Virus record (IMG/VR): IMGVR_UViG_3300031772_007968
Coordinates: 1 to 55,946 of that record
From: a virus
Direction: 5' to 3' (one strand)
DNA: 55,946 bases
Made by a program: the position numbers and the translations under genes. Below are positions 5,069 to 46,157 of the stretch, piece by piece (within the stretch, counting starts at the first letter, position 1; each line of letters begins with the position of its first letter). A model generated the notes under the pieces. That model was not told where the DNA came from, made no database searches, and was given only the letters and a program-made list of their open reading frames with translations.

Positions 5069-6255
5069 CCGCCGACGCAAACGACGCCCCACAACAGCAA
5101 GCGTTGACTTCGAGCGAATGGCCCAGGATCAGCCTGAAGAAGCTTGAGATCGTCAACTTCGGCAAACACAAAAACGTCGTCGTCGACTTCACGCACCATG
5201 GAGGGGTTATGGGGCTGGCGTGCCTTGTCGGGCCGAACGGGACTGGCAAGACCACGATCCTGAACGCCGTCCAGAACTTGTGCTCCAACTTTTCGGAATA
5301 CGACGAGCAGAGATATTTCGGCCTCATGTGCAAGTCGGTGCACGACGTGACGAACATGACTCCCGTTCAGCTTCTGAAGCTCAGGGAAGAGCCGCACATG
5401 ATGCTCAGGGGGACGTTCCAAATCGTCTCTGGAAACGAGTCCGGAACATATACCGTCGAACTGAACCAGATCCGGCCGGTGTCAACGCACCCAGAGTTCG
5501 TCCACGCAAGGATAATCAACTACTGCTTTTACGCTCGGTTCGACATGGAGCTGCACATGTTCCAGCTCAAGAGGAGCAGATGGCCGGCATTCAAGGAGCT
5601 CTTCTCCACCATTACCGGCTTCCCAGTCGAGGAGGACGACACTATCTTCAGCATGAGCTCCGACAGCAACTTCGAAAAGTCCCTGAAGGAATATGTTATG
5701 GGGTTCAGGATCAGGAAGGGCAACGACGTGTTCACGCAACGTCAGTGCAGTTCCGGCGAGAGGAAGATAGCCAAGTGCTTCTCCACGATCCTCAACAAGG
5801 ACATCCCGCCGTCCATCATCCTCATTGACAACGCCACGATGCATGTCGAGGTCGGACGCCACATTTCAGTCATCGAGAGTCTGGAGAAGTGCTTCCCTGA
5901 GAGCCAGATCATCGCCACCTGCCATAGCGTCCCGGTCGCGAAGTCCCTGCCGAGGAGGGAAAGGCTTATGGATATGAGGTTCCTGGATACCCCCCAGTGG
6001 ATCAGGGACGAGCCTTGGCGGCTCAGGCTGATTGACGACGTTTCCGAGACAGTGGAGAGGCTCCGCAACGCTGGCATGGGACAAAAGGCGGACGAGGGGT
6101 CTGCCATCCTTGCGTCGTTGCAGTCGGCTCCGACATGCGACACCGTCTACGACGACTTTGTCAAGCCGTCCTGCGAATTCCTGTCACAAGCCCCCTTCCT
6201 GCTTATGGAGGACCTCCATTCCACACCTCTCCCGAAACTTGGCCGCATTGTCTGA
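5065..6255 (+). CDS. RecF/SMC-like AAA ATPase with altered Walker B
   Basis: 396 residues. The N-terminus LKKLEIVNFGKHKNV is typical of RecF/SMC/OLD-type ATPases that sense or process DNA. Walker A is GPNGTGKT (56-63), the ABC-type signature is CSSGE (228-232), Walker B is IILIDN (251-256) and a switch histidine is at 287 (ATCHS). The family normally has Asp-Glu in Walker B; here the catalytic Glu is Asn256, so ATP hydrolysis may be slow or absent. There is no long coiled coil, so it is a compact ATPase. It overlaps the upstream gene by 4 bp. Possible roles are recombination, packaging support or defence; none is shown by the sequence. Confidence 0.8.
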   Translation: MTADANDAPQQQALTSSEWPRISLKKLEIVNFGKHKNVVVDFTHHGGVMGLACLVGPNGTGKTTILNAVQNLCSNFSEYDEQRYFGLMCKSVHDVTNMTPVQLLKLREEPHMMLRGTFQIVSGNESGTYTVELNQIRPVSTHPEFVHARIINYCFYARFDMELHMFQLKRSRWPAFKELFSTITGFPVEEDDTIFSMSSDSNFEKSLKEYVMGFRIRKGNDVFTQRQCSSGERKIAKCFSTILNKDIPPSIILIDNATMHVEVGRHISVIESLEKCFPESQIIATCHSVPVAKSLPRRERLMDMRFLDTPQWIRDEPWRLRLIDDVSETVERLRNAGMGQKADEGSAILASLQSAPTCDTVYDDFVKPSCEFLSQAPFLLMEDLHSTPLPKLGRIV

Positions 6256-6283
6256 TGCCGGCCGGTATGGAAGGGATTTGGGG

Positions 6284-6289
6284 TATAAT
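6284..6289 (+). promoter_or_regulatory. -10-like TATAAT upstream of 6324 gene
   Basis: GGGTATAATAC lies 35 nt before ATG 6324 in the short gap after the ATPase gene. No clear -35 is seen. It is a variant of the recurring TGTATAAT element. Confidence 0.4.
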
Positions 6290-6323
6290 ACGCGAAGAAT
6301 CAAGAAGCGGAGCTTTACTGACT

Positions 6324-7652
6324 ATGTTCATAACCGTGGCCAAAACAGATGGCGGATATGTGTTCGCGGCCGGAGACAATCCTTCCGACGAACCCGGAGC
6401 GTTCTTCCAGTCGCAGGAAGACTTCTTCCTTGTGAACGGACTGCCGTCGACCTATGGAACCTACGGTGAGGCTCACGCCTATGCTCACAGGCTTGTCAGA
6501 TCCATGCCGTCAATAGTCATGGCGAAAAAGGCATGGCATTACCGAACCGCCATCGAAAGCACCCCCATCCTTCTGGGATCCGAGGAGAATACCGTTTCCC
6601 TCTACAACGACCAGGTCAACATCGTCGGTGAGCGCGTTACCGATTGGAAATCAATGGATCCTGAGGATCAGGAGAAGGAGGGCGAGATATTGGCCAGCGA
6701 GATGGACGGGATCGTCGCCAACATAGAAAGCGTCCTTCAGCAGGTCGAGGAAGACGAGAACACCGAAGAGCTTGCAGACCTTGTGGAAAAAATCAAGGAC
6801 ATGAGGAAGCAGGTCACCGGGGAAGACCCCGACGAAGAGGGCAAGGAAAACGGGGAACTGTCCCTGCCTGAACTTCCCGAGGCGATGCCGGCGGCGGCCA
6901 TTCCGCCTGCCGGTTTGGGTTCGACTGGAAGCGTGAAACAGTCATGTTCCTGCGGACACCAAGCCATACGCGACGGCTTGGCAGAGTCCGCCGTCAGGGC
7001 GTTCGCGGAGGCGGCTATGTGCGCCGTGCAGCCAGCCCACCCCGAAGTCTTCGTTGGGCTGGCGACAAGGCATCCAGACGGCGGATACGAAGTCGGCCTT
7101 TCGGAGCCGGTTGACGGTGGCGTGAGGGATGTTGTTTCACTCCAGTTCGACGACAGGCTGCTGCTGAAGAGGATCGTGCCGTCACAGTCCACCCACAAAA
7201 GGTGCTCATACGGGTCGGCCGAATTCCTTGAAAAATATTGGGAGCCAGTCGTTTCGGCGGTTGGACACGTCCTTATCGGCGACGCGGACGCCGTTGCCGT
7301 ACCGGCCTTTTCGGGATCGGGATGCGGCGACATGATGGCTTTCAAGGTCTCGGACGGATCGGAATGCCGCATCAGGGTGTCGCCATCCAATGACGGCGCG
7401 TCTTGGTTCGCATCGGAAACGAACGGCGCCAAAACGGCCTCGTCTAGGTTCAAGGATGGCGATCTCAAGCCCGACGAGACGCAGGTCAGGTGCACCAACA
7501 GGGATTTGCCGACATACTATGGAAGAACCGGGACGGTCAGAAAAGTCGCCCCGAAAAGGGATTACGCAGATGTCACAGTTGACTTCATGAGGGGCCTGGG
7601 AGAAGTTGTCCTCACCGACAAGGACATAGAGATTTCACCCATGCCGTCTTGA
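6324..7652 (+). CDS. Uncharacterised protein with C-terminal KOW/SH3-like segment
   Basis: 442 residues from ATG 6324; the frame is open further upstream but that part overlaps the ATPase gene. The N-terminal half is mixed, followed by an acidic helical stretch (about 110-180) and a Pro/Ala linker. The second half is beta-rich with a CSCGH element. The last ~50 residues (YYGRTGTVRKVAP, then DVTVDF and GEVVL) resemble a KOW/SH3-type barrel that often binds RNA or protein. The stop overlaps a possible TTG start of the next gene; the ATG at 7670 follows closely. Function unknown. Confidence 0.75.
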   Translation: MFITVAKTDGGYVFAAGDNPSDEPGAFFQSQEDFFLVNGLPSTYGTYGEAHAYAHRLVRSMPSIVMAKKAWHYRTAIESTPILLGSEENTVSLYNDQVNIVGERVTDWKSMDPEDQEKEGEILASEMDGIVANIESVLQQVEEDENTEELADLVEKIKDMRKQVTGEDPDEEGKENGELSLPELPEAMPAAAIPPAGLGSTGSVKQSCSCGHQAIRDGLAESAVRAFAEAAMCAVQPAHPEVFVGLATRHPDGGYEVGLSEPVDGGVRDVVSLQFDDRLLLKRIVPSQSTHKRCSYGSAEFLEKYWEPVVSAVGHVLIGDADAVAVPAFSGSGCGDMMAFKVSDGSECRIRVSPSNDGASWFASETNGAKTASSRFKDGDLKPDETQVRCTNRDLPTYYGRTGTVRKVAPKRDYADVTVDFMRGLGEVVLTDKDIEISPMPS

Positions 7653-7669: not shown

Positions 7670-8536
7670 ATGAAAAAGCTTTTCAAACTCCCGATCTCGG
7701 AGGCACTGCCCACGTTCGTCAGGGATCTTGACGACGGTGTTGTGGCCATAGCATATTCCAAGGAGACCGGCGACCTCCTGTCGGCCAATTTCGCCGACAG
7801 GTCAGTCAGGTTCTGCCTCAAGGACGACAGGATTCTCTTTAGGGTTCCCAGACCGGGGAAGCCTAACGGGTTGTGCGTGTCGGCGGACGGGTTCTCGGCC
7901 ATCGTCAGGGATGACTTGGGCAGGGTCGCTTGGGAAGTCGGCATCGTCACGACCGTTGTCAGGCCGCTTGCCGGCAAGAGGGGCGTTGACGCCTTTTCCG
8001 GCAGGTACAAGCAGGATGACGTTCCGGTTGACAGGATGAACGGGATATGCCAGATCCCCGGTGCCGTTCTTGTAACGGCCGACGACTCGCATTGCCTGTT
8101 CGCGGTGTGCGAAGACAGTGCGGTCAGGCTTGTCGGAGGGAACGGAACAAGGGGATTTTCCATAGCCCCATCCCTCCAGACATCCATGTTGGATTCCCCA
8201 GGCGGAGTGTGCGTTATGTCAAACAAGCTCCTTTGCGTATGCGATTCGGGCAACGCCGCGATCCGCGTCGTCAACCCGTCGGGGATGGGGCATGTCCGCG
8301 TCTTCGGCAATCCCATGCAGAAATCGAAATCTGACGGCGACGCCGCTACGGCCAGGATGGTCAGGCCAGAGGGCATATGTGCCATAGACGGCAAGGCGGC
8401 TTTTATAGACTGCGGGAACAGCATCCGCCTTCTTGACCCCAACGCCCAACTCTTACGGACGCTTTATGAGTCAAAAGGCAGGATCGGATCGGTGGCCTGC
8501 TCTCAGAACGAGATATATTTCACGGAGTCCGCATGA
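7670..8536 (+). CDS. Second NHL-type beta-propeller protein
   Basis: 288 residues from ATG 7670 (a TTG at 7649 would add seven). Repeated blades are visible: LSANFADRSVRF, NGLCVSADGFSAIV, GICQIPGAVLVTADDSHCLFAV, GVCVMSNKLLCVCDSGNAAIRVV and GICAIDGKAAFIDCGNSIRLL. Together they would close a 5-6 blade propeller filling the whole protein. Unlike the NHL protein at the left edge there is no serine tail. Its last codons overlap the TerL start (ATGA), so it is co-translated with the packaging motor gene. The role is unknown; a protein-binding scaffold is the usual job of such folds. Confidence 0.75.
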   Translation: MKKLFKLPISEALPTFVRDLDDGVVAIAYSKETGDLLSANFADRSVRFCLKDDRILFRVPRPGKPNGLCVSADGFSAIVRDDLGRVAWEVGIVTTVVRPLAGKRGVDAFSGRYKQDDVPVDRMNGICQIPGAVLVTADDSHCLFAVCEDSAVRLVGGNGTRGFSIAPSLQTSMLDSPGGVCVMSNKLLCVCDSGNAAIRVVNPSGMGHVRVFGNPMQKSKSDGDAATARMVRPEGICAIDGKAAFIDCGNSIRLLDPNAQLLRTLYESKGRIGSVACSQNEIYFTESA

Positions 8537-10278
8537 AGACCGGCAAACGACCGCAGAAAAACAAGACGTTGTCGCCCAAGGGTACGATCCGCGACGCCAT
8601 AGCCGAACTGAAGGTGTCGCACGGGCTTGTTGAGCAGGCGTCGTCGTCCGACGACATCGTGGACATCGTCAAGTTCTGCGAACGTCCCGACCTGCTGAAC
8701 CTTCCTGCCAACAACCTGAACCTGTTCATATCGCAACGGGTGGTTCTAAAGTGTCTGTATTTGGGGTCAAGGGGCAACGAGGATCTTCAACTCACCGACG
8801 AGGAGGTGCAGTGGCTAAAAGACAAGAAACAGGACAACGTCCTCAAGATGCTTCATGATCGGTCGAAGGGCGGCGTGAGAAGGAGGGTGTCTGAGCTGAC
8901 GCTGGTTCTCGGGCGGAGAGCCAGCAAGACCGTGATAGCCAGCATCATTTCGGCGTACGAGGTCTACAAGCTGCTCAAGGTCGGCAAAGGCGACCCGTAC
9001 AATTTTTACGGCATAGCCTACGACGAGGAAATCGCCATCTTGAACGTGGCGACGTCCCGCAAACAGGCCGGAAGGTTGTTCGCTCAGATCAAGGCCAGGC
9101 TCAGGAACAGCCCATTCTTCCGAGAGAAGATAGCCAAGGTTACTTCCGACGAAATCAGGCTCTATACTGACATCGACTTGAGGAAGCTGAAGGAGTCCGA
9201 AGACACCGTGCCCGTCGAGGGATCGGTTGTGATTGTGTGCGGACACTCCAATCCTGACTCCCTGCGCGGTTACACCGTGATATGCCTCATCTTCGACGAG
9301 CTTGCGTTCTACGACGAGTCCGAGAAGATCTCCGGAACAGACTTCTATGAGGCTCTGGCACCGTCGGTGCACGATTTCGCATCGCGCGGCGACGGCCTGA
9401 TCGTGGAGATATCGACCCCCGGCCCGAAGACGGGGATATTCTACAAGCTTTGGAAGAACAGCTTCGAGGTCGACGGGATGATGTCGTTCAAGATGGCGAC
9501 ATGGGACTTCAACCCGAACAAGCCGTATGACGACCCAGAACTCACAAAGTTCAGGAAGTTGGATCCCGACGGGTTTGATGTCGAGTTCGGAGCCGAATGG
9601 CCAGAGGGGGGCGTGTACGGCATCTATTTCCCGGAGGAGCTCCTGGCCAAGACGTTGAAGATTGATCTGGCTCCTGAAACCGAACCTGTCTTCGGATGCG
9701 AATACTATATGCACGTCGACCCAGGCCTGTCGGCAGACAGGTACTGCGTCGCCATAGTTAGGAAAACGGTATACCACGACTCTGGTGGAAACCTGTCACC
9801 GAGGGTGATTCTCGCCATGACCAAGGCATATGATCCCGAGAGCCAGGGCGTTGGCCTTAACTATGAGAAGATTGAAGCCGACCTCCTCGACATGTGCCGA
9901 AAGTTCAATCCCATCCTTGTAACCTTCGACCAGTGGAACTCGATTGGGAGCCTTCAGATGCTCCAGAGGAACGGCTTCAACACAAGGCAGACGACCTTCA
10001 ACCGAGGCTACAAGAACAGGATATACCAGAACCTGAAGGATCTCATGGCCAAGCCAGAGCTGGGCCTGTGGCTCTATGACGACCAGCTGTTGATGACGGA
10101 GCTCAGGAACCTGAAATACCGGCCTACGGCCAGGGGGATGAGCATCGGAGCCGACAAGAGGGGTGACTGCCCTACCGACGACATGGCAGACTGCCTCGCC
10201 GGGGCGGCATTCATGGCCTCCGGCCACCATCACGCTAGGCTCCCTGAGGTCCTGACCGTCTATACCGGGATGCGATAA
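8533..10278 (+). CDS. terL: Terminase large subunit (TerL), DNA packaging ATPase-nuclease
   Basis: 581 residues, a normal TerL length. Walker A is GRRASKT (127-133), Walker B is CLIFDELAF with D255 and E256, and a coupling-type motif STPGPKTG follows at 295-301. The nuclease half has acidic residues in the expected spacing: D396 (MHVDPG), D466 (VTFDQW) and D550/D553 (DDMADCLAG). The protein pumps DNA into the procapsid and cuts concatemers. No small terminase was recognised beside it. The start overlaps the preceding propeller gene by 4 bp. Confidence 0.95.
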   Translation: MKTGKRPQKNKTLSPKGTIRDAIAELKVSHGLVEQASSSDDIVDIVKFCERPDLLNLPANNLNLFISQRVVLKCLYLGSRGNEDLQLTDEEVQWLKDKKQDNVLKMLHDRSKGGVRRRVSELTLVLGRRASKTVIASIISAYEVYKLLKVGKGDPYNFYGIAYDEEIAILNVATSRKQAGRLFAQIKARLRNSPFFREKIAKVTSDEIRLYTDIDLRKLKESEDTVPVEGSVVIVCGHSNPDSLRGYTVICLIFDELAFYDESEKISGTDFYEALAPSVHDFASRGDGLIVEISTPGPKTGIFYKLWKNSFEVDGMMSFKMATWDFNPNKPYDDPELTKFRKLDPDGFDVEFGAEWPEGGVYGIYFPEELLAKTLKIDLAPETEPVFGCEYYMHVDPGLSADRYCVAIVRKTVYHDSGGNLSPRVILAMTKAYDPESQGVGLNYEKIEADLLDMCRKFNPILVTFDQWNSIGSLQMLQRNGFNTRQTTFNRGYKNRIYQNLKDLMAKPELGLWLYDDQLLMTELRNLKYRPTARGMSIGADKRGDCPTDDMADCLAGAAFMASGHHHARLPEVLTVYTGMR

Positions 10279-28214: not shown

Positions 28215-31200
28215 ATGGCCGGACAGATAATCACGAGAAACTTGGAAATGACGTTCAAGGCCCTCAGGAGCGGCATGCCCATCCCAGAGATGCCTGAAAC
28301 CCACATCATGTCCCCCGACATGAGCTCATATGCCCCGCCCGTCATGGCCAGCACCGGCAGCGGACTGGTCAAAACGGCCTCAAGCGGCATCATCTACACC
28401 CAGCCCCAGTTCTTCAGCCCCATCCACACCCCCATCAACTGGCAAATCCCGAGCAAGCGCAAGGAGCTGTACCAGTGGTCCCGCTACTATTGGGAAAACG
28501 AGCCCAAGGTTGCCACGGCGATAGAGTTCCTGTCCCGCTTCCCTGTGAATGGGTTCACACATGAGTGCAAGAACAGGCACGTTAAACGCTTCTACGACCA
28601 GTTTGCCAAGGATATCCGCCTCCTGAGGTGGCTCAGGATCATCAGCCACGAGGTGCATCTCTTGGGCGACTGTTTCCCCTTTCTTGAGATCGAATGCCGT
28701 AAGTGCGGCGGAGCGGGATACATCGGCGACCAGACGTGCGAGCACGGCGGTGGATCGTTCAAACGTCTCGTCATCCTCAATCCTGAATATGTCGAGGTGT
28801 ATTCGACCCCGTTGGTTCCCGATCCGGTCATCGCCTTCATCCCCAACGACGAGCTGAGGAACCTCGTCATGCGCCGTGGCCCAGGCCACGAGAAGCTTAC
28901 CGAGGAGCTCCGGAAGCTCATAGGAGCCGGAAAGCCCATCTCCCTCGACAACCGGTGCGTGTCCCACATCAAGTACATGGACAACGGCTACAACCGGTAC
29001 GGCGTCGGAATCGTCCGCAGGCTCTTCCCCATCCTCGCCTACAAGACGAAGCTAATGACGGCCCAGTGGATCGTCGCCGAGCGGCTCATCCTCCCGATCA
29101 AGGTTGTCAAGGTCGGAAGCGAGGAGAGGCCGGCCAGCGCCCAGGACTTGGCCAACGTGCAGGCGCAGCTTGCCCAGACGGCCAACGACCCCAACCTGAC
29201 ACTCGTCACCCACCATGCGTTCGAACTTGATTGGTTCGGTGCTTGCCACGACGACCAAACGGAAGTCCTGACAGAAACAGGGTGGAAGAAATTCACGGAT
29301 GTGACAGTGGGCGAAAAAGTTATGGGATACGATTCCCAAACCGGAACGATGAGCTATCAATTGCCCGAGGCAAGGCAAGAATACGACTACAACGGAACAA
29401 TGGTAACGATTTCTGGCAAACACATGGACGCTTGTGTGACCCCCAATCATACGATGCTTGCCAAGGTCAGAAAATGGAATAACGACAAACTTGGCTATGA
29501 TCATTCTGAATGGTGCAAGATCAGAGCCGACCAAGTTGTAGAAAACACGAAGTTCAAAGTGACGGCTGAATGGATTGGGGCCATCCCCCACGATCTTCCA
29601 TATAAGAAAATCCAGAAATTGTCACATCTCCCGTTGAATAACTATCTGACATTCCTTGGATATTTCCTTTCCGAAGGAGGATTCAAGGTTGACAACGGTG
29701 TAATCAATGCGTTCCACATTTCGCAATCCGAAGGAAGTTATTGTCTTGAGGATATTCGAAGGATAATGGGATTGCTCTCAAACAAGGTTCAAGAATCCAG
29801 GGATGAGAGAAGAGAACTGGCAAACATACAGTTCATAATCAATGACAGCGCGTTTGCAAGGGAACTTGTGACACATACTGGTCTCAAGGCTCACGAAAAG
29901 AGAATCCCAAGATGGGTTCTTGATCTTCCAAAAAGCGAATTGACAATCTTGTTGAATGCCTTGATGGCTGGAGACGGCAATGTAAGATTTTCTCCAAGCA
30001 CGTTGCCGAGGTTCAAATATTCTTCCGTATCTGAAGGACTTGCCGACGATGTATTGGAACTGACATTCAAACTTGGTTACAATTCAAAACTTGCTTTGGA
30101 AAAATCTGACAATCCTGACCACAGGGATATTTATCGCGTCTGCTGGGCATGCGAGTGCATGGAGGCGTCTGGCGGTGAAAGAACCGTCAAGGATAGGAAT
30201 ATTGGAAGAACCGAATATAACGGTAAGGTTTACTGTTTTACTATGCCGACTGGATTTCTTGTAACCCGCCGCAACGGCAAGATCGGCATTCATGGAAATT
30301 CGGGGAAGATTCTCCAAGTCACCGGAGAGTTTGAACTGATCAACCAGGAGATCCTTGACGGTCTCGGGATCAACAAGGCACTGCTTAACGGTGAAGGGCC
30401 CACATATTCGAACGCAGCGATCGGTGTCGAGGTGATGATCGACAAGCTGGAATCATGGCGGCAGGATTTGGCCGAGTGGGTCGAGCAGAAGATCTACCTT
30501 CCGCTTGCCATCATGAAAGGCTTCACCCAGAAGAACGAGTGGGGTGAGGACGAATGGGTGTATCCGCGCCTGAAGTGGAACATCATGCATCTCCGCGACC
30601 AGCAGCAGTATCGGCAGTTCATGCTGCAACTTCACGAGAAGCAGGCCATTTCAACACAGAGGCTTCTGGAATCGTTCGACATCAACTATGACGAAGAGGT
30701 CGAGCTCCTCAGGTATGAACGTGCACAGGGAGCCATTGGAGGCCCGCAGCCTGGAGCCGGCGGTCCTGGGATGGGCGGTGGGTTCGGCGGCGGGGCACCA
30801 GGCGGGATGCCCGACCTCAGCGGCCTCGGCGGCGGCGGGGGGATGCCTCCCATGCCTGAGCTTGGCGGGGCCCCTGGCGGCGGCGGGGCACCTGGCGGGG
30901 CCCCTGGCGGCATGCCCGGCGGCGGGGCTGGCGGGGCGCCCGCTCCTACGGCCGGAGCCAAACTGTCTGCGACAACGGCCAACATACAGGATTTTGGCGG
31001 GAAGGTTCTCAAGGAGAAGACTCGGGGCAAACTTGAGAAACAGAGGCAGAAACTCTTCGAGACCAATTCTGGACCGTCTAGGGATGAGAAGGGCAGGGTG
31101 ATGTTCACTGGTCCCGAAAGGCAGATCATGAAGGAGATCATCGCCTCATCCAGGAGGGGCGACATCAAGCAGCGGATCTTCCCGCAGTACCCGGTCAAGT

Positions 31201-31475
31201 TCGGATCGGAGGAATACACGATTGATTTCGCCATGCCGGACATCAAGCTTGGCGTTGAGGTGGACGGCGAACTTTTCCATTCGACGCCCGAACAGATATC
31301 CTCCGACAGGCAGAGGGATTCCAAACTCTCCTCGCTCGGTTGGACTATGCTAAGGTTCACTGACAGGGAGGTAGACTCCGAGATGAGGCAGGTCATGGAA
31401 ACGGTCATCAAATATGTGACTCAGAAAGAGGCACTTCTGAAAAGTGCATCCGAATCCCAGACTCCCCGAAAGTGA
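28215..31475 (+). CDS. Portal protein with intein and C-terminal DUF559/Vsr-like nuclease domain
   Basis: 1086 codons: N-extein 1-343, intein 344-695, C-extein 696-1086 (734 residues after splicing). The exteins look like a phage portal: NWQIPSKRKELYQWSRYYW, VATAIEFLSR, MDNGYNRYGVG and GKILQVTGEFELI. A metal-binding-like CRKCGGAG...CEHGG element lies near 160. After the portal core comes a Gly/Pro linker (about 843-915), then a domain (about 968-1070) resembling DUF559/Vsr PD-(D/E)XK nucleases: FPQYPVKFG, IDFAMPD (D1004), GVEVDGELFH (E1015, D1017), QRDSKLSSLGW and MLRFT. The portal forms the dodecameric DNA gate at one capsid vertex. Confidence 0.85.
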   Translation: MAGQIITRNLEMTFKALRSGMPIPEMPETHIMSPDMSSYAPPVMASTGSGLVKTASSGIIYTQPQFFSPIHTPINWQIPSKRKELYQWSRYYWENEPKVATAIEFLSRFPVNGFTHECKNRHVKRFYDQFAKDIRLLRWLRIISHEVHLLGDCFPFLEIECRKCGGAGYIGDQTCEHGGGSFKRLVILNPEYVEVYSTPLVPDPVIAFIPNDELRNLVMRRGPGHEKLTEELRKLIGAGKPISLDNRCVSHIKYMDNGYNRYGVGIVRRLFPILAYKTKLMTAQWIVAERLILPIKVVKVGSEERPASAQDLANVQAQLAQTANDPNLTLVTHHAFELDWFGACHDDQTEVLTETGWKKFTDVTVGEKVMGYDSQTGTMSYQLPEARQEYDYNGTMVTISGKHMDACVTPNHTMLAKVRKWNNDKLGYDHSEWCKIRADQVVENTKFKVTAEWIGAIPHDLPYKKIQKLSHLPLNNYLTFLGYFLSEGGFKVDNGVINAFHISQSEGSYCLEDIRRIMGLLSNKVQESRDERRELANIQFIINDSAFARELVTHTGLKAHEKRIPRWVLDLPKSELTILLNALMAGDGNVRFSPSTLPRFKYSSVSEGLADDVLELTFKLGYNSKLALEKSDNPDHRDIYRVCWACECMEASGGERTVKDRNIGRTEYNGKVYCFTMPTGFLVTRRNGKIGIHGNSGKILQVTGEFELINQEILDGLGINKALLNGEGPTYSNAAIGVEVMIDKLESWRQDLAEWVEQKIYLPLAIMKGFTQKNEWGEDEWVYPRLKWNIMHLRDQQQYRQFMLQLHEKQAISTQRLLESFDINYDEEVELLRYERAQGAIGGPQPGAGGPGMGGGFGGGAPGGMPDLSGLGGGGGMPPMPELGGAPGGGGAPGGAPGGMPGGGAGGAPAPTAGAKLSATTANIQDFGGKVLKEKTRGKLEKQRQKLFETNSGPSRDEKGRVMFTGPERQIMKEIIASSRRGDIKQRIFPQYPVKFGSEEYTIDFAMPDIKLGVEVDGELFHSTPEQISSDRQRDSKLSSLGWTMLRFTDREVDSEMRQVMETVIKYVTQKEALLKSASESQTPRK
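29244..30299 (+). mobile_element. Intein with LAGLIDADG endonuclease in the portal gene
   Basis: 352 codons in frame. It begins with Cys (CHDDQTEVLTETGWKKF, block A), has block B around VTPNHTMLAKV, LAGLIDADG-type helices FLGYFLSEGGF and LLNALMAGDGNV, and ends in FLVTRRNGKIGIHGN before Ser696. The penultimate residue is Gly instead of the usual His, a known variant. Splicing would join DWFGA to SGKILQV. Lower GC and different codon choice than the flanks indicate transfer. Confidence 0.9.
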
Positions 31476-33413: not shown

Positions 33414-36400
33414 ATGATCGAGAAATATGCCATATGCAGTTTTGTTGACATCGAGAGGATCGAGGGTGGATCCGCCGATCAGCTCATGAGCATGGTGAAG
33501 ACGGCCGCCAACAAGATCAGCATACACGAACACACTCCGTACAAGGATGTGATCGAGGCTGAAATCAAAAAGCATGCGACAGCTCTGTTTTTCAAGGCCA
33601 AGGCCATCGTCGCCGACGAGATGAACACCAACGGCGACTATTTCTCCAAGGAAGAGCTCAAGCGTGCCGCTCAGACGTTCGTCGGGGTTCCGTTCTATAC
33701 GAACCACAACAACAAGGACATCGAGCAGGCTCGCGGGAAGATAATCTTTTCCGAGTGGAACGAGAAGGACAACGCCATCTACGTCATCGCCTTCGTCGAC
33801 AGGGAAGCCTACCCCCACGTGTGCAGGGGCATCGAACAGGACTACATGACCGGCGTCAGCATGGGATGTTCGGTTGAATATTCCGTCTGCAGCATCTGCG
33901 GCCAAAAGGCCGAGAAGGTCGAGGAATACTGCTCCCACATCAAGAATCTCAAGGGCAGGAAGTTCTCCGGAACCGCCAAGGACGTGAGGACGGGGGTCGT
34001 CCGCCAGTTCAAGAACGCCCTCGTCTATGAGGACAACTACGGCGTCAGGTTCATCGAACTGAGCGGAGTCGGCGACCCAGCATGCAGGAGCTGCCACATC
34101 CAGGGCGTATTCGACAACCACGAAGCTCTTCTTCACAAGGCCGCATCCGTCGAGAACAACATCTACATGTATCGAGAGTCGTCCATGGCCAAGGAAGCGA
34201 GCCAGGAGGAGATCCAGCAGCTCCAACAGGCTCTTGCGACGCTTGAACAGATATCAATCGGCCTCATCAAGAACCGACAGAACGTCGAGGTGGAGTTCGC
34301 CAGCGACCTTGTGGCTATCCTTTCCGACCTCCAGAAGTTCACGGACGAACTGGTTGCGGCGGGATACGGACAACTTCAGGGCGCTCCAGCCGTTCCAGGA
34401 ACCGAACCCGTTCCTGGTATGGACTCTGGTGCGACAGCCCTCCCTCCCCCCGCCGCCGGGATGCCGAGTGTGGCTCCCGCAGTCGAATTTGGGTTGCCGT
34501 CTGCCACCCCAATGCCTGCCGTTGAGTCCGCTCCTGCCCCGGCTGCTGCCGTCGGAAGGGTTTCCGGAGCCCCAGGCAGGCCTTCCGTGAACAGGCCGAC
34601 CATGCCCACCCCTCCCGCCAAACCCATGGCTGCTGCGGCGGTCGTCAATTTGATGGCGAAAATAGCTGAAAAGGCCTCCGAAGTGTTTTCCCTTATTTCA
34701 CACTCGGATGCAGGAAAAACCGAAGAAATCAAGGAACAGGAGAGTTCAATGAAGGAAAACGAGAAAATTTCAGCGAATATCACTGAGCATAAGACCAGTT
34801 CAATCACAAACGGAGGATCCGCAATGTCTGATGTGAAAACCGCGGCAAGGACGGAAGCGCCGGAAGTTGTCAATGAGAAGCAGCTCGACACCGGCATCAA
34901 GTATCATCCGAGGACGGATTCGGCCCCGGATCAGGTGACCCAGGCGCAGCTCGAAGCGAAGCGCTCGGGCCAGGAACCCGAGGTTCTGAGCGAGAAGCAG
35001 CTTGATGCGAAGCGCACGGACGGGACTCCGACCGTCGTGACCCAGAAGCAGCTCGATCCCGCCCGCAAGGACGACGAGAAGGATCAGGTGACCCAGGCGC
35101 AGCTCGCGGTCCAGAGGACCGACAAGGAGCTGCAGTCCGTCACCGAGAAGCAGCTTGACGACAAGCCCGCCGACGTGTGGTCCAGGTCGGCCTTTGCGAG
35201 GAAGGCTGTGAAGACCGCCGCCGAGCATCTGGCCTCCGTGGTCAGCGTGCTGGCGAAGGTGGCTGTGAAATGCTCCGCGACTCCCGCCCAGATCAGGACG
35301 GCAGCCGGCGAAATGGTGTCCGGAACCAAGCAGAAGTCTGCCTTCCTCGACGCCATCACCTCGACCGACGCCAAGCCCGAGGCCACCGACACGCTCGACG
35401 TGGCGGCCAGGGCGAAGTATTGGGGCGGAAGGGGCATCACCATCGCATCGGCGACGGCGGCCGACATCATGGACACGGTCCGTTCCGGCCTGAAGTCCCT
35501 TGTCGCATCCGATGAGAAGATCCACCCTGAGACGGTGGCGGACGTTCTCGAAGTCGTCGCCGAAGAGGCGGACAGCGAGAAGGAAATTTCTGCGGCGGTT
35601 GACGCCATGATGGATGCCAAGCAGGCGGACTCCAAGCCAGCCGCATCCGCGAAGGACGACATCCGCAAGGCCCTGAAGACCGACAAGTCCCCGGCGGCGA
35701 AGCCGGAGGCCGTCCAGGCACGGGCTGACGAGCGGAAGAAGATCCTCGCGGCGGTTAGCAAGCCGACCCACAAGATCGAAGCCTCGATGAGCGAAATCGG
35801 AATCACAAGGGAGATGCTCAAGTCCGACGAGAAGGCGGCTCGGAAGCTCATCGTCGGTTTCGCGAAGGGCGCGATGGCCGGACAGAACAAGAAGGTCGCC
35901 GCAGTCACCAACGTGACGATTGACGGCGACGTCATCCAGATCGCGGTCTCGACGGACGAGAGTGCGGCCGAGGTGGAGGTCCCTTTGGCGGGTGAGGGCA
36001 TAGGCCCCGAAGCCGCCCCGAAGGAAGGCGACGTGACGGGCGAGAACCTTGACGCCCTTACGATGCCGCCCCCGGCGGCAGCCGCCCCTGCCCCTGCGGC
36101 CCCCGGACTCGGACTGCCTCCCGCTGAGGCTCCGCTGCCCGTTGCCGGTGCGAAGGTTGAATTGAAGAAGGAAGCCCAGGTCGGCGGAGGCCAGCCCGGA
36201 ACGGCTTCGAACATGCCTTCGGTAGGCGGACCTGGCGATGCAGGAACAGCGGTTCCAGAGCCGCCCCCCGCGATGGACGCCGGACTTGAGTCCTTCACGA
36301 AGGACGAGGCCAAGGGCGAGCTGCCCGAAGCCGGCGAACAGATGATGCCCGGAGCGATCTGCCCGTTCTGCCGCTCGACCGACACGACTGTCGGCCAGGA

Positions 36401-38504
36401 AGGCAGGGAGGCCGGCGTGTTCGAGTGCAACAACTGCGGAGCGGTGTACAGCTACGAGGTTTCCGTCACGGTCCTTAACCCCGAGAACGTCTCGTTCGAG
36501 GAGGAAGGCAAGAAGGGCCCCGAGGGCGAGGGCGAAGTCGAAGAACCCAAGCTCCCCGAAATGCCGGTTGCGGCGGTGGCGAAGCTCGACAAGGTCATGC
36601 TTGAGAAGATCGCCAGCAACGAGAAGAAGTTCGGCCACGTCTGTCCCGCATGCGGGACGGCCGACTGCAAGCCGATCGAACAGGCCGCCGGAAGCACGCG
36701 GTATATCTGCCCGAAGTGCGAAACCGAGGTCAAGAAGGACATCGTCGTCAACAAGGACGACCCCTCCGACACCTATATGAGGATCGCATGGGTCCTGAAG
36801 CCCTCCAAGGTCTCCAAGGTCGGATGCGGCGGATGCAAGAAGGCCGCCAACGAGTTCTCGGCCAGGGTGAAGGTCGCCAAGATGATCCACACGGCCGGAG
36901 TCAACTCGGCGAAGCCCGAGACGGCCTTCCCGATGGCCAACTGCGTCGAGAGGATCGCCAAGAAGTACGGCTCGAACGCCGTCGCGACATTCGGCCCCTG
37001 CAAGGGCAAGCCGCTGACGAAGTGTGTCTGCGACCAGCTTGAGGCGTTCGGCCTCAGGAAGGTGCGGCACCTCGAGAAGCTGGCGTCGGTGTACGCCCAG
37101 CCCGATCCGATGGAGCAGTGCATGAAGGACCACGTGGGCAAGAAGTACACGCAGGCCCAGGCGGAGACGATCTGCAACGCCCTGAAGAAGAAGTACGCCA
37201 CCGAGGCCGACGATAACGGCTTCATCATGGCCTTCGGGGAGTCGAAGGAATTCTCAATCGATGAGTTGAGAATCATGAAAGAAAGGTATGACGCAATGAC
37301 AAAGCAAGCACAGACCGCGGCTCCGGTTGACCTCGACGAGGACATCGGCGCCCCCATGGCTCCCGAGGCACCTGCCGAGGAGTTCGTCACGATCGAGCTG
37401 CCCGCGGATGTCGCCGCCGACGTCCAGGCTCAGCTGACCACGCAGACCGAACAGGCCGCCCCCGAGGCTCCCGCAGGGATCCCCGAGACGCCAGTCGCGG
37501 TCGCGGCCGGATCGGACAAGGCCGTGAAGACGGCCGCCAAGCCCGTCAAGGTTGAGAACATCGAGGGCGAGGTCGAGGCCAAGATCCCGCGCGGCAAGGC
37601 CACGCTGGGCAAGGAAGGCCCCGCCAACATCGACGTCAAGGAAAACAAGCCCAACATCCCCGAAGGCGGAACGAAGGCCAGGATGGGCGGCGAGAGCGAG
37701 AAGAACATCGATGTGAAGGCCGAGCTGCCTGACCTCCCGATCGACAGCTCCCTGATCGGCGGCGAGAAGGAGACCCAGAAGGGCATGCCTGCGGTCAGCG
37801 ACAAGATCAAGGGCACCGTCATCGCCGAGAAGGGCAAGGAACTGACCAAGGAAGCCACCAAGCCCGTCAAGGTCGAGAAGATCGAGGGCGAGGTCGAGGC
37901 TGGCATCCCCCGCGGGAAGGCCACCCTTGGCAAGGAAGGCCCCGACAACGTCGACGTGAAGGAGAACAAGCCCAACATCCCGAGGTCGCCCGAAGGAGCC
38001 CGCATGGGCAACGAGGGGCCCGAGAACATCGATGTGAAGGCAGACCTGCCTGACCTCCCGATCGACAGCGCCACGATGGGCGACGAGGCCAATGTCCAGA
38101 AGGGCATGCCTCCTATCAGTGACAAGATCAAGGGAACGGTCATCGCCGAGAAGCACCAGAAGCATATGGACAAGATCTCGATCGCAAGGTACAAGAAGGC
38201 CTGCCAGGTCGTGTCCAAGCTGGTGGCGCTCGGCAAGGTCGCCGAGTCCGATCACGAGGCCGTCATTGACGACCTGTCGAAGCTCGAGCTCGAAAGGATC
38301 GAGGCGTTCGCCGAGAGGATGTTCCGCTCCGCGTCAGCCCAGCCCCAGAAGCAGTCTGGACCGGTTCTGAGCACCCCGATCGTCCAAGAGGCGTCGTCCT
38401 ACGCGCCCGCGCAGCCGAAGTCCCTGAAGGACCAGCTCGCCGAGGCGTTCACCGTCGGAAGCGACAAGCTGAACGAAGCCATCAGGGAGGACGAGGAGAA
38501 GTAG
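33414..38504 (+). CDS. Prohead protease-scaffold fusion
   Basis: 1696 residues; GGAGG before the ATG. Residues 1-235 read as a prohead protease: ADEMNTNGDYFSKEEL, VPFYTNHNN with His98, an IIFSEW strand, and TGVSMGCS with Ser149. An inserted cysteine cluster (C159, C162, C173, H175; C224, C227) may bind zinc. Pro/Ala linkers (310-420) lead to VTQAQL/VTEKQLDAKR repeats (about 500-590), then long acidic helices. Two zinc ribbons follow (CPFC...CNNC near 985-1010; CPAC...CPKC near 1080-1110). After them come a 107-residue tandem repeat and a C-terminal coiled coil. The protease would cut scaffold and head proteins after procapsid assembly. Confidence 0.8.
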   Translation: MIEKYAICSFVDIERIEGGSADQLMSMVKTAANKISIHEHTPYKDVIEAEIKKHATALFFKAKAIVADEMNTNGDYFSKEELKRAAQTFVGVPFYTNHNNKDIEQARGKIIFSEWNEKDNAIYVIAFVDREAYPHVCRGIEQDYMTGVSMGCSVEYSVCSICGQKAEKVEEYCSHIKNLKGRKFSGTAKDVRTGVVRQFKNALVYEDNYGVRFIELSGVGDPACRSCHIQGVFDNHEALLHKAASVENNIYMYRESSMAKEASQEEIQQLQQALATLEQISIGLIKNRQNVEVEFASDLVAILSDLQKFTDELVAAGYGQLQGAPAVPGTEPVPGMDSGATALPPPAAGMPSVAPAVEFGLPSATPMPAVESAPAPAAAVGRVSGAPGRPSVNRPTMPTPPAKPMAAAAVVNLMAKIAEKASEVFSLISHSDAGKTEEIKEQESSMKENEKISANITEHKTSSITNGGSAMSDVKTAARTEAPEVVNEKQLDTGIKYHPRTDSAPDQVTQAQLEAKRSGQEPEVLSEKQLDAKRTDGTPTVVTQKQLDPARKDDEKDQVTQAQLAVQRTDKELQSVTEKQLDDKPADVWSRSAFARKAVKTAAEHLASVVSVLAKVAVKCSATPAQIRTAAGEMVSGTKQKSAFLDAITSTDAKPEATDTLDVAARAKYWGGRGITIASATAADIMDTVRSGLKSLVASDEKIHPETVADVLEVVAEEADSEKEISAAVDAMMDAKQADSKPAASAKDDIRKALKTDKSPAAKPEAVQARADERKKILAAVSKPTHKIEASMSEIGITREMLKSDEKAARKLIVGFAKGAMAGQNKKVAAVTNVTIDGDVIQIAVSTDESAAEVEVPLAGEGIGPEAAPKEGDVTGENLDALTMPPPAAAAPAPAAPGLGLPPAEAPLPVAGAKVELKKEAQVGGGQPGTASNMPSVGGPGDAGTAVPEPPPAMDAGLESFTKDEAKGELPEAGEQMMPGAICPFCRSTDTTVGQEGREAGVFECNNCGAVYSYEVSVTVLNPENVSFEEEGKKGPEGEGEVEEPKLPEMPVAAVAKLDKVMLEKIASNEKKFGHVCPACGTADCKPIEQAAGSTRYICPKCETEVKKDIVVNKDDPSDTYMRIAWVLKPSKVSKVGCGGCKKAANEFSARVKVAKMIHTAGVNSAKPETAFPMANCVERIAKKYGSNAVATFGPCKGKPLTKCVCDQLEAFGLRKVRHLEKLASVYAQPDPMEQCMKDHVGKKYTQAQAETICNALKKKYATEADDNGFIMAFGESKEFSIDELRIMKERYDAMTKQAQTAAPVDLDEDIGAPMAPEAPAEEFVTIELPADVAADVQAQLTTQTEQAAPEAPAGIPETPVAVAAGSDKAVKTAAKPVKVENIEGEVEAKIPRGKATLGKEGPANIDVKENKPNIPEGGTKARMGGESEKNIDVKAELPDLPIDSSLIGGEKETQKGMPAVSDKIKGTVIAEKGKELTKEATKPVKVEKIEGEVEAGIPRGKATLGKEGPDNVDVKENKPNIPRSPEGARMGNEGPENIDVKADLPDLPIDSATMGDEANVQKGMPPISDKIKGTVIAEKHQKHMDKISIARYKKACQVVSKLVALGKVAESDHEAVIDDLSKLELERIEAFAERMFRSASAQPQKQSGPVLSTPIVQEASSYAPAQPKSLKDQLAEAFTVGSDKLNEAIREDEEK
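34824..38504 (+). CDS. Possible nested in-frame start producing free scaffold
   Basis: Inside the protease-scaffold gene, in frame, GGAGG lies 7 nt before ATG 34824, and AGGAG lies 6 nt before a second in-frame ATG at 34749. Both come right after the Pro/Ala linker that ends the protease part. Starting here would give a 1226-residue scaffold without protease, as in the lambda C/Nu3 arrangement. The sites are visible; their use is inferred. Confidence 0.5.
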   Translation: MSDVKTAARTEAPEVVNEKQLDTGIKYHPRTDSAPDQVTQAQLEAKRSGQEPEVLSEKQLDAKRTDGTPTVVTQKQLDPARKDDEKDQVTQAQLAVQRTDKELQSVTEKQLDDKPADVWSRSAFARKAVKTAAEHLASVVSVLAKVAVKCSATPAQIRTAAGEMVSGTKQKSAFLDAITSTDAKPEATDTLDVAARAKYWGGRGITIASATAADIMDTVRSGLKSLVASDEKIHPETVADVLEVVAEEADSEKEISAAVDAMMDAKQADSKPAASAKDDIRKALKTDKSPAAKPEAVQARADERKKILAAVSKPTHKIEASMSEIGITREMLKSDEKAARKLIVGFAKGAMAGQNKKVAAVTNVTIDGDVIQIAVSTDESAAEVEVPLAGEGIGPEAAPKEGDVTGENLDALTMPPPAAAAPAPAAPGLGLPPAEAPLPVAGAKVELKKEAQVGGGQPGTASNMPSVGGPGDAGTAVPEPPPAMDAGLESFTKDEAKGELPEAGEQMMPGAICPFCRSTDTTVGQEGREAGVFECNNCGAVYSYEVSVTVLNPENVSFEEEGKKGPEGEGEVEEPKLPEMPVAAVAKLDKVMLEKIASNEKKFGHVCPACGTADCKPIEQAAGSTRYICPKCETEVKKDIVVNKDDPSDTYMRIAWVLKPSKVSKVGCGGCKKAANEFSARVKVAKMIHTAGVNSAKPETAFPMANCVERIAKKYGSNAVATFGPCKGKPLTKCVCDQLEAFGLRKVRHLEKLASVYAQPDPMEQCMKDHVGKKYTQAQAETICNALKKKYATEADDNGFIMAFGESKEFSIDELRIMKERYDAMTKQAQTAAPVDLDEDIGAPMAPEAPAEEFVTIELPADVAADVQAQLTTQTEQAAPEAPAGIPETPVAVAAGSDKAVKTAAKPVKVENIEGEVEAKIPRGKATLGKEGPANIDVKENKPNIPEGGTKARMGGESEKNIDVKAELPDLPIDSSLIGGEKETQKGMPAVSDKIKGTVIAEKGKELTKEATKPVKVEKIEGEVEAGIPRGKATLGKEGPDNVDVKENKPNIPRSPEGARMGNEGPENIDVKADLPDLPIDSATMGDEANVQKGMPPISDKIKGTVIAEKHQKHMDKISIARYKKACQVVSKLVALGKVAESDHEAVIDDLSKLELERIEAFAERMFRSASAQPQKQSGPVLSTPIVQEASSYAPAQPKSLKDQLAEAFTVGSDKLNEAIREDEEK
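37539..38160 (+). repeat. Tandem 321-bp (107-codon) coding repeat in the scaffold
   Basis: The first copy starts at KPVKVENIEGEVEA (37539) and the second at KPVKVEKIEGEVEA (37860). Both contain IPRGKATLGKEGP, DVKENKPNIP, LPDLPIDS and SDKIKGTVIAEK. The exact 321-bp offset and high identity show a recent duplication. Confidence 0.9.
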
Positions 38505-39452: not shown

Positions 39453-40322
39453 ATGTTGGACAAGAAAGCAGTCAATGAAAAGCGGGCAGAGCTCATCGCT
39501 CAGGCGATGGACACTCCCGAAGGTCGTGTCGCGCTCGCACAGGCGATGGTGGAACCGATCCGCAGGGCCCTGGAATACCAGGCGGTCGGCCGCAAGCTTC
39601 TGTTGGTGGACGAGCTGCCGCAAGGCGCCTATGCCCGCTATGAGAAGGACGTCCGCGCTACGGCGTGGGTCGTCTCCCGCAGGGGATCGGTGCCCGACAA
39701 TATCGTCGAAGGCGAGGAAATCCTCGTCCCGACATTCGAGATCGCGGTCAATCCGACCGTCCGTATCTCGGAAGTGAAGGCCCGCCGGTTCTACATCGTG
39801 GACCGCGCCCAGATCAAGGCCAAGGAAGCCATCCAGAAGGAAGAGGACAGCAACATTTTCGCAGCGATCAACACGGCCGTCGCGGCCGTCGCGGCGAACC
39901 TGATCGTGTCCACTGGCGGCGCCCTGAGCATCCAGGCCCTCAACCAGGCCTTCGCCGCGGTCGAGAGCCACGACCTGACAGTCGGCAAAGTCGTTTGCCA
40001 CGCCCTCCGCTATGCGGACATCAGGGCTTGGGGACAGACTGTGTTCGACCAGGCAACGATGAAGGAAGTCCTGACGACCGGACTGTTTGGTCACATCTTC
40101 ACGGCTGACATCCATGTCAGCTCGAGGGTGCCGACCACGTACGTGTTCGTCATGGCCCCCGCCGAGTACGTCGGAGCGTTCCCGGTACGCCAGGACATCA
40201 CGGTCCTGCCCGCGGATGACCCCAAAAAGCTGCGGCTGGGTTGGGTTGTGTACGAGGAGGTGGGCGTCGTGATCGTCAACGACTACGCCATCGCCAGAGT
40301 CGAAGTCAGCGTCGGTTCCTAA
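39453..40322 (+). CDS. Major capsid protein (HK97 fold)
   Basis: 289 residues; AAGGAG 7 nt before ATG. The order scaffold, decoration, capsid, then strong terminator fits the major capsid gene. HK97-like features include an N-terminal helix, AVGRKLLLVDELPQGAYARY, EGEEILVPTFEIAVNP, and a C-terminal domain with FPVRQDITVLPADDPKKLRLG cited in part and EEVGVVIVNDYAIARV. The short length implies a compact subunit. A LAGLIDADG gene follows directly downstream. Confidence 0.85.
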   Translation: MLDKKAVNEKRAELIAQAMDTPEGRVALAQAMVEPIRRALEYQAVGRKLLLVDELPQGAYARYEKDVRATAWVVSRRGSVPDNIVEGEEILVPTFEIAVNPTVRISEVKARRFYIVDRAQIKAKEAIQKEEDSNIFAAINTAVAAVAANLIVSTGGALSIQALNQAFAAVESHDLTVGKVVCHALRYADIRAWGQTVFDQATMKEVLTTGLFGHIFTADIHVSSRVPTTYVFVMAPAEYVGAFPVRQDITVLPADDPKKLRLGWVVYEEVGVVIVNDYAIARVEVSVGS

Positions 40323-40422: not shown

Positions 40423-40456
40423 ATGGTGTAGAATTAATAAATCAAGGAGATTGTTT

Positions 40457-41437
40457 ATGCCTCCGCCACGGAAAAAAATTGACGAACACAAACTGTATGA
40501 ACAATATGTCATACAACAAAAGTCAACGACTGAAATCGCTAAGGATAGCGAATCGTTATTGGGAATTAAAGTAAGTTCTGCTTTGGTGTATTGGTCTTTG
40601 GTTCGTTACAACATACCCATACGCAACAAATCACAAAGCATTTCTATGGCGAGGTGCACACTAGATCGAAATGAGACCTATATTGATGAAGCCACCATTG
40701 AATGGATTGATGGATTTTTACTTGGCGACGGATCCATTGGTTTTCGAAAGAATGACTTTATGAATGCTAGGTTTTCTATGGGATCTGTAGAAAGGGGGTG
40801 GACTATCTATGCGGTTTCCGGTCTTAAAAAATATCAGCTTTCTAAACCAAAACAATCTGGGGAAGTCTGTACCAGAAGACCCAACCGATCTTGGTTAAGC
40901 TACAGTTTGACTCATCCTGATATTGTCCAGCAAGCAAAACGCTGGTATCCTAATGGCAAAAAAGTAGTTCCTGATGATGTCAGAATCACCCCGACAAGCC
41001 TTTTGCTTTGGTATCTTGGGGACGGCAGCTTCTGTTATGATCCTGAACACAATATCCCACACTTGAGACTTGCAACTTGTGCATTTTCTCCAACCGATAT
41101 AGAGAATATTCTTATCCCCAAATTGGCCGCCTTGGGGTTGGTCTGCTCAAGGGAAAAAAGTAAGAACGACATCGGTATCCTATCGGAGTCAATCGGCCGC
41201 TTTTTCGAGATCGTCGGGCCGAAGTCCCCGATCCCGTGCTACAGCCACAAGTTCAGCATACCCGAGTGGCTCTCCCAGATCCACCTGTGCCAGATCGTGA
41301 AAAACGACAGGGAGAAATGGCGTGCCATCTATTACATCAAGAACGGCCAAGTCGAGTGCTCCAAGAGCCCCGGCGGCCACTTCCTGCTGTTCACCAAGGA
41401 TCAGGCCGACGCCCTGTGCAGGAAACTTGGCAGGTGA
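40457..41437 (+). CDS. Free-standing LAGLIDADG homing endonuclease
   Basis: 326 residues from ATG 40457 (AAGGAG 8 nt upstream). An N-terminal helix-turn-helix-like part (STTEIAKDSESLLGI) precedes two LAGLIDADG-type helices, WIDGFLLGDGSIGF and LLLWYLGDGSF, followed by the typical GRFFEIVGPKSPIPCYSHKF end. It cuts a specific DNA site, presumably in this capsid region of related phages lacking it. Base composition changes inside the gene: the first ~720 bp are AT-rich with foreign codon use, and from about 41175 to the stop it is GC-rich like the phage. The gene is therefore mosaic. Confidence 0.85.
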   Translation: MPPPRKKIDEHKLYEQYVIQQKSTTEIAKDSESLLGIKVSSALVYWSLVRYNIPIRNKSQSISMARCTLDRNETYIDEATIEWIDGFLLGDGSIGFRKNDFMNARFSMGSVERGWTIYAVSGLKKYQLSKPKQSGEVCTRRPNRSWLSYSLTHPDIVQQAKRWYPNGKKVVPDDVRITPTSLLLWYLGDGSFCYDPEHNIPHLRLATCAFSPTDIENILIPKLAALGLVCSREKSKNDIGILSESIGRFFEIVGPKSPIPCYSHKFSIPEWLSQIHLCQIVKNDREKWRAIYYIKNGQVECSKSPGGHFLLFTKDQADALCRKLGR

Positions 41438-45356: not shown

Positions 45357-46157
45357 ATGGAAAACGTAATAATTAACGCAAAATGGGAAGATGCGTTACC
45401 CCACTTACCATCTGGCTCCGTTGATTTGGTATGTATGGATCCTCCTTATGGAGTGACCCCAGCCACATGGGATGTCAGGCCGGATTGGAATCTATTGATG
45501 TCCGAATTGGGCAGAGTGTGCGGTGATACTGGCCAATGCTGGTGTTTTGTCCGGATGCCATGGGCTATGGATGTGTATTTGGCCTCAATATCAAATGGAT
45601 GGGTTTGGGGCCAAGAAATAATCTGGGAGAAACAGAACGCCGGCGGCTGCACCGTTGGTACCTTCAGGAAGGTCCACGAGAACATATGGAACTTCAAGCG
45701 GAAAAACGCCAGGACGTTCAATCTGGAGGCCATACGAGTCCCGAAGACCACCCACGGCGACAAGTCCGTCAAAAGGAGGAAGGACTCGACGACGCAGTTC
45801 CTAGGGGCGAACAACAGCTCATATTCCGACGACGGGATGCGGCTTCCGCGCAGCGTCGTGCGCTGCAGGAACATACACAGATCCGAGGAATCGCTCGGAC
45901 ATCCGACGCAGAAGCCGCTTGACGTGGTGATCCCATTCGTCCTCTATTCTTCGAACCCCGGGGACCTCGTGGTTGACCCGTTCTGCGGGACAGGAACATC
46001 CCTTGTAGCAGCCAAGATGTATGCCAGAAGGTGGATCGGCGTCGAGAACGACCCGCAATGGCTCAAGGTGGCCCAGGAGAGGCTGAATTCGACGGCCGTT
46101 TTGGATCACAAGCCGACGGTCGGGACACAAGGAGAAAGCGACCTTTTTGCCGAATGA
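45357..46157 (+). CDS. Beta-class DNA methyltransferase (DPPY), mosaic gene
   Basis: 266 residues. Motif IV is DPPYGV (28-33) and motif I is VVDPFCGTGTS (about 205-215), with GHPTQKPLDVV before it, the order of beta-class N6-adenine/N4-cytosine enzymes. It would modify phage DNA, probably against restriction. The first ~260 bp are AT-rich with foreign codons; the rest is GC-rich phage-type, and the frame is intact across the switch. The GC-rich start of the former gene survives at 44239. Confidence 0.9.
   Translation: MENVIINAKWEDALPHLPSGSVDLVCMDPPYGVTPATWDVRPDWNLLMSELGRVCGDTGQCWCFVRMPWAMDVYLASISNGWVWGQEIIWEKQNAGGCTVGTFRKVHENIWNFKRKNARTFNLEAIRVPKTTHGDKSVKRRKDSTTQFLGANNSSYSDDGMRLPRSVVRCRNIHRSEESLGHPTQKPLDVVIPFVLYSSNPGDLVVDPFCGTGTSLVAAKMYARRWIGVENDPQWLKVAQERLNSTAVLDHKPTVGTQGESDLFAE

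Follow-up and report, generated by a model that had tools for sequence, protein, structure and literature searches.

Portals are treated as channels and docking sites for the packaging motor, and the cutting of the genome is assigned to terminase. Enzymes fused to portals are already known as predictions, with PBECR, 2H and InPase domains among them (PMC5512222). In polyvalent proteins and MuF toxins an enzyme is likewise joined to a virion protein of the portal vertex (PMC5512222, PMC5576092); the fused domains differ from phage to phage and are RNases, phosphoesterases, ADP-ribosyltransferases and mixed toxins. The head-completion protein gp4 of phage T4 is described as a virion nuclease of the REase fold that is needed for packaging (PMC7824862).

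The locus described here lies in a 55,946-bp virus record from IMG/VR, the whole of which was analyzed and is called the window below. Its portal gene ends in a domain that resembles the DUF559/REase_MTES_1575 proteins, such as NGO0050 (PDB 3hrl), in sequence family and fold, and the D, E-x-D-G and D..R motifs align. Unlike those proteins, which are stand-alone or have other architectures, the domain forms the C-terminus of a portal, and it carries additional conserved residues (helix T..E, H1022 and RD). It shares the catalytic-domain fold and an alignable E..G / D..R region with Vsr and with I-Bth0305I (EDxHD/Vsr-like, PDB 3r3p); it differs in that it is not encoded by a mobile intron, lacks DNA-specificity domains and is universal in its family rather than patchy. 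The portal and MuF fusions offer a parallel in architecture, but here one type of DNA nuclease is fixed across a portal family. The likeness to T4 gp4 consists in the REase fold and the virion location, and a packaging role for the portal domain would be by analogy; in contrast to that domain, gp4 is a separate TnsA-like protein that is neither part of the portal nor DUF559. The closest cultured portal found, gp14 of Bacillus phage G (about 32% core identity), has a Pro/Gly-rich tail but, unlike the window portal, ends without a nuclease domain. A literature search, run in a library with few subscription papers and no preprints, returned no account of a portal that bears a DUF559/Vsr-type domain or of a portal family in which every member has such a fusion, and the passages found in a jumbo-phage overview and a review do not mention a portal-nuclease fusion.

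The portal gene

The open reading frame at positions 28215-31475 begins with ATG, encodes 1086 amino acids and matches phage portal families in profile searches (phrog_16240 portal, 1.5e-40); Portal_Mu is matched in 13 of 18 full-length aligned relatives. When a relative without inteins (L007) was modeled at full length, all 50 of the 50 best PDB matches were portal or portal-neck entries, although the model is weak (pLDDT 55.7, pTM 0.39) and cannot place the nuclease domain in the capsid. By sequence family and fold the product is a Caudoviricetes portal, and from portals in general it would be expected to form a dodecameric ring.

All parts of the gene lie on the plus strand. The N-terminal extein (28215..29243, residues 1-343) carries the phrog_16240 match over residues 67-342 and is 63-68% identical to the portals L001-L003. 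It is followed by an intein with a LAGLIDADG homing-endonuclease domain (29244..30299, residues 344-695, 352 residues) and by the C-terminal extein core (30300..30728, residues 696-838), which is 52-59% identical to inteinless relatives. A Gly/Pro-rich linker, similar to that found in relatives, comes next (30729..30959, residues 839-915; 37 G and 14 P in 77). A basic segment (30960..31091, residues 916-959) leads from the linker to the nuclease; its motifs GGK[VI]LK.KTR and RDEKGR are conserved in the window's clade, and [YF]GGK[VI]L (31002-31019) is conserved in most of that clade. The last part (31092..31472, residues 960-1086) contains the predicted DUF559/MTES_1575 PD-(D/E)XK nuclease domain and a C-terminal tail, an assignment that draws on Pfam, an AlphaFold model, Foldseek and residue invariance.

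The intein begins with C344 and ends with HGN695, followed by S696. It matches LAGLIDADG_3 (6.9e-5, Pfam) and, weakly, intein-containing NCBIfam models, and the portals L001 and L003 are uninterrupted at the same site (ELDWYGA/AGKVL and ELDWVGA/NGQVL, the slash marking the site). The terminal residues and the inteinless alleles are as expected for an intein, and self-splicing is predicted; the spliced portal would be 734 amino acids long. A first-pass annotation, made from the letters of this DNA, had overlooked the intein. Its portal-nuclease fusion is borne out, its motifs, coordinates and residue numbers (D1004, E1015, D1017) were right, and the linker that it put at about 70 residues is indeed present and measures 77.

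Inteins occupy at least six positions in the portal gene of this family, and one gene (L018:3937-9459, which is also the L137 gene) holds four inteins at four sites within a single 1841-aa portal ORF. Locus L200 has two. One (5856-6896) shares the portal site of the window intein, and the other (7791-8951) splits the E-x-D motif of the nuclease (GLE/C...HN/CDG). Inteins tend toward highly conserved sites in important proteins, and so this second insertion is an independent sign that the nuclease active site is one of them. Dependence of the nuclease domain on an intein was considered and rejected, because most relatives have no intein and yet carry the domain.

A free-standing LAGLIDADG homing endonuclease (phrog_11023, 7e-22) is encoded at 40451-41437 of the window, just after the gene for the major head protein. 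The terminase large subunit genes of L114, L115, L120 and L121 are enlarged (frames of 970-1112 aa), probably through inteins, one of which adjoins the Walker A motif.

The nuclease domain

Residues 995-1067 match both PF18741 (REase_MTES_1575; 1.5e-10, 41.5 bits against a curated cut-off of 38.2) and PF04480 (DUF559; 4e-10, 40 bits against 20.6), and DUF559 is matched in all 18 of the full-length aligned relatives. An AlphaFold2 model of the 157 C-terminal residues, built from an alignment of 13 relatives, reaches a pLDDT of roughly 90 or higher across most of the nuclease core. The best PDB matches of this model in Foldseek were 3hrl (TM-score 0.84 by target length), 3r3p (chain B, E 5.8e-4) and PvuRts1I, with Vsr weaker (1vsr, E 0.043). 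A profile search of PDB sequences likewise had 3hrl and 3r3p as its top two, the latter at 1e-4. Profile matches and predicted structure together support assignment of the domain to DUF559/MTES_1575, of the PD-(D/E)XK restriction-endonuclease-like fold.

Eight residues are predicted to form the active site: E968, D1004, E1015, D1017, H1022, D1031, R1034 and D1035. Across 65 distinct domains G1018, H1022, D1031, R1034, D1035, G1042, W1043 and R1047 are invariant, and E968, D1004, E1015 and D1017 each deviate in just one row. For E1015 and D1017 that row is the intein-split L200, in which the N and E stem from the intein junction; by our reading of the table and of the L200 sequence, this is also the row with the gaps at E968 and D1004. 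The first-pass view of the C-terminus as a DUF559/Vsr-like nuclease had left two points open to contradiction, a non-nuclease fold and loss of the acidic residues in relatives. The predicted fold is that of a nuclease, and the acidic residues are kept in the 65 distinct sequences once the one intein is allowed for; with the Pfam matches and the presence of the domain in 74 of 74 uninterrupted ORFs, that view holds. A recurrence of this extent, together with the DUF559 matches of all 18 aligned relatives, goes well past anything that chance would give.

Distribution and inheritance of the fusion

A first scan with the nuclease alignment as query yielded about 28 portal fusions together with free-standing DUF559 proteins. 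To avoid selecting for the nuclease domain, a second scan used only the portal-core alignment as query, and it returned 80 portal loci on IMG/VR contigs. The domain is present in every one of the 74 portal ORFs that are uncut by a contig end or stop codon, within the reach of a scan whose patterns derive from domain-bearing portals and extend to cores about 43% identical or more. Set aside were five ORFs that run off their contigs and one (L194) with a single in-frame TGA in the linker (L194:6486-6488), beyond which the nuclease continues in the same frame; this TGA may be a sequencing variant, a true stop or a readthrough codon. On the contig of L002, a separate protein (L019:5242-6522) carries two short portal-like motifs (SPVHTPINWQIP, SNDPNLKITTHHA) in a sequence that is otherwise unlike the portal.

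The portal-bearing contigs reach 476 kb, with others of 379, 358, 347, 316 and 301 kb, sizes that place jumbo phages within the lineage; contigs of lesser length, the window included, may be fragments. In all 28 records searched DUF559 is found in the portal, and in 26 of them, even on contigs of 300-379 kb, this is the sole copy. Only two of the 28 have a copy beyond the portal, a second DUF559 protein (303-aa frame) at G005:222737-222967 (476 kb) and G006:10384-10614 (296 kb), the contigs of L010 and L011.

Portals further removed, those of phage G, Tunturi_5 and one 485-kb phage, do not have the domain. Scans of 84,980 GTDB genomes found no relatives in bacterial or archaeal genomes. In 50,697 records of cultured phages, no portal with the nuclease domain was among the matches listed, which were helicases, endonucleases and other or hypothetical proteins. 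PADLOC returned only weak homing-endonuclease and PDC-S37 matches.

The nuclease domain has followed the portal closely. Core and nuclease identities are correlated (Mantel r 0.96, a value not reached in any of 2000 permutations), and of 30 core splits with good support the nuclease tree recovers 22. When compared with 35 free-standing DUF559 domains, the portal-fused ones group into a single separate clan (support 0.91). These trees fit a single ancient fusion, after which the domain was passed on together with the portal. The domain is the faster-evolving part, with a mean identity of 42% against 59% for the core, and identity between the most distant nuclease domains is about 19%. Judged by a median dN/dS of about 0.05, it is under purifying selection (0.049, against 0.025 for the core, in comparable pairs; the values are rough because dS is near saturation in many pairs). 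These comparisons show the nuclease domain and its active site as fixed throughout this portal family and inherited together with the portal.

Neighboring genes and other DNA enzymes

The terminase large subunit is encoded upstream on the plus strand (8533..10278; PF03354 1.5e-6, phrog_2 4e-29), with its ATPase and intact nuclease aspartates. In an alignment of the window with its relatives the three nuclease aspartate motifs are kept in all 20 terminases, and replacement of the terminase cut by the portal nuclease was rejected on this ground; a takeover of that cut is disfavored by the sequences, and the portal nuclease would be an addition.

Downstream, also on the plus strand, a head maturation protease (phrog_2774 1.4e-34, phrog_18299 3.5e-17) forms the N-terminus of a 1696-aa protein (33414..38504) that possibly processes head proteins; long low-complexity and repeated segments and Cys-rich stretches are found in this protein. 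The major head protein follows on the same strand (39453..40322; phrog_2522 9.7e-73). A DNA methyltransferase is encoded at 45357-46157 (phrog_67, 1.6e-44). Together with the fold match to PvuRts1I it provides a lead, and only that, toward a possible modification-dependent cutting that would spare the phage's own DNA.

Two further candidate explanations were examined. RusA matches occur in 5 of 11 large contigs, 3 of them above the curated cut-off, and a role of the portal nuclease as replacement for a Holliday-junction resolvase is not supported; RuvC and Hjc were absent from the same 11 contigs, and the Endonuclease_7 part of this search had no positive control, so that in the window's clade such a role may yet apply. 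Production of a free nuclease from an internal start was rejected, since the Met before FTGPER is not conserved.

Role of the nuclease domain

Solved portal structures show the C-terminal region as the crown, on the inside of the capsid. The gene encodes a portal with a flexibly tethered, C-terminal DUF559-type nuclease domain, from which the intein must be spliced out, and we propose that this domain is a catalytically active DNA endonuclease. If the tether leaves from the crown, as portal structures in general suggest, about 12 copies would face the capsid side of the channel, where they could process DNA during its entry or once the head is full. They might, for example, clear DNA that is branched, tangled or left over at the portal and thereby allow packaging to be completed. 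The portal would then cut alongside the terminase and not in its place.

This packaging role is suggested by an enzyme that is always present, of a single type, co-inherited and tethered at the DNA channel, and a domain that stays constant and is not swapped is more in keeping with housekeeping than with an arms-race effector. We favor it tentatively, with confidence that falls somewhat short of even. Against the proposal stand the intact terminase nuclease, which leaves a second cutter without an evident purpose, the question of how a nuclease inside the head would spare the genome, and the faster evolution of the nuclease relative to the core. Of the tasks suggested in the first-pass annotation, an attack on incoming competitor DNA at the outer gate has the lowest likelihood, because the crown is expected inside the capsid. 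The ranking of these and the following readings is a judgment and not a measurement.

The main rival is a virion-loaded effector, which we consider somewhat unlikely. The domain, inside the head, would be freed by the head protease or would leave with the DNA, and in the newly infected cell would attack the chromosome, plasmids or defense-related DNA, much like the enzymatic domains on MuF or portal proteins. There is precedent: injection has been proposed for PBECR, 2H and InPase domains on portal and MuF proteins (PMC5512222), and nuclease domains occur in more than half of MuF toxins (PMC5576092). The expected position inside the head also agrees with this reading, as does the head maturation protease two genes downstream of the portal, and the long flexible linker could be cleavable. 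However, inspection by eye of the window and its relatives revealed no conserved prohead-protease site in that linker, no immunity gene was identified, and release would need the same channel to which the domain is tied. Known effectors are, moreover, often swapped, whereas the same domain type is found in 74 of 74 portals.

That constancy also weighs on the idea of a homing or interference nuclease, derived from Vsr/EDxHD homing endonucleases, that cuts co-infecting phage genomes and favors its own portal gene. The close structural match to I-Bth0305I, the resemblance of free-standing phage relatives to homing endonucleases and the attraction of inteins to the portal gene all point in this direction. 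Such elements are patchy, however, while the nuclease domain is universal and co-inherited in its portal family and is present regardless of inteins; it is also an in-frame domain of a structural protein, with no recognized specificity domain. We regard this origin of its function as improbable. Slightly less probable again is an inactive domain retained as a DNA-binding or structural module, for example gripping or organizing DNA at the portal, for although the fusion is without any known activity and DUF559 carries an unknown-function annotation, loss of catalysis is usually visible as substitutions at catalytic residues, and here all the predicted ones are invariant even as identity falls to about 19%.

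Implications

With doubt and confidence about evenly balanced, we suggest that an uncultivated phage lineage, jumbo phages included, has made an endonuclease a permanent part of its portal. Packaging or delivery would then include an obligatory cut made by the DNA gate itself. If this is true, an invariant nuclease on every portal of a broad lineage would mean that packaging or ejection includes a second cutting step, tethered to the gate. It would make testable the questions of how headful packaging terminates, how very large genomes are packaged and how a nuclease inside the head spares the phage's own DNA, and the portal would also be an enzyme acting on the DNA that it transports.
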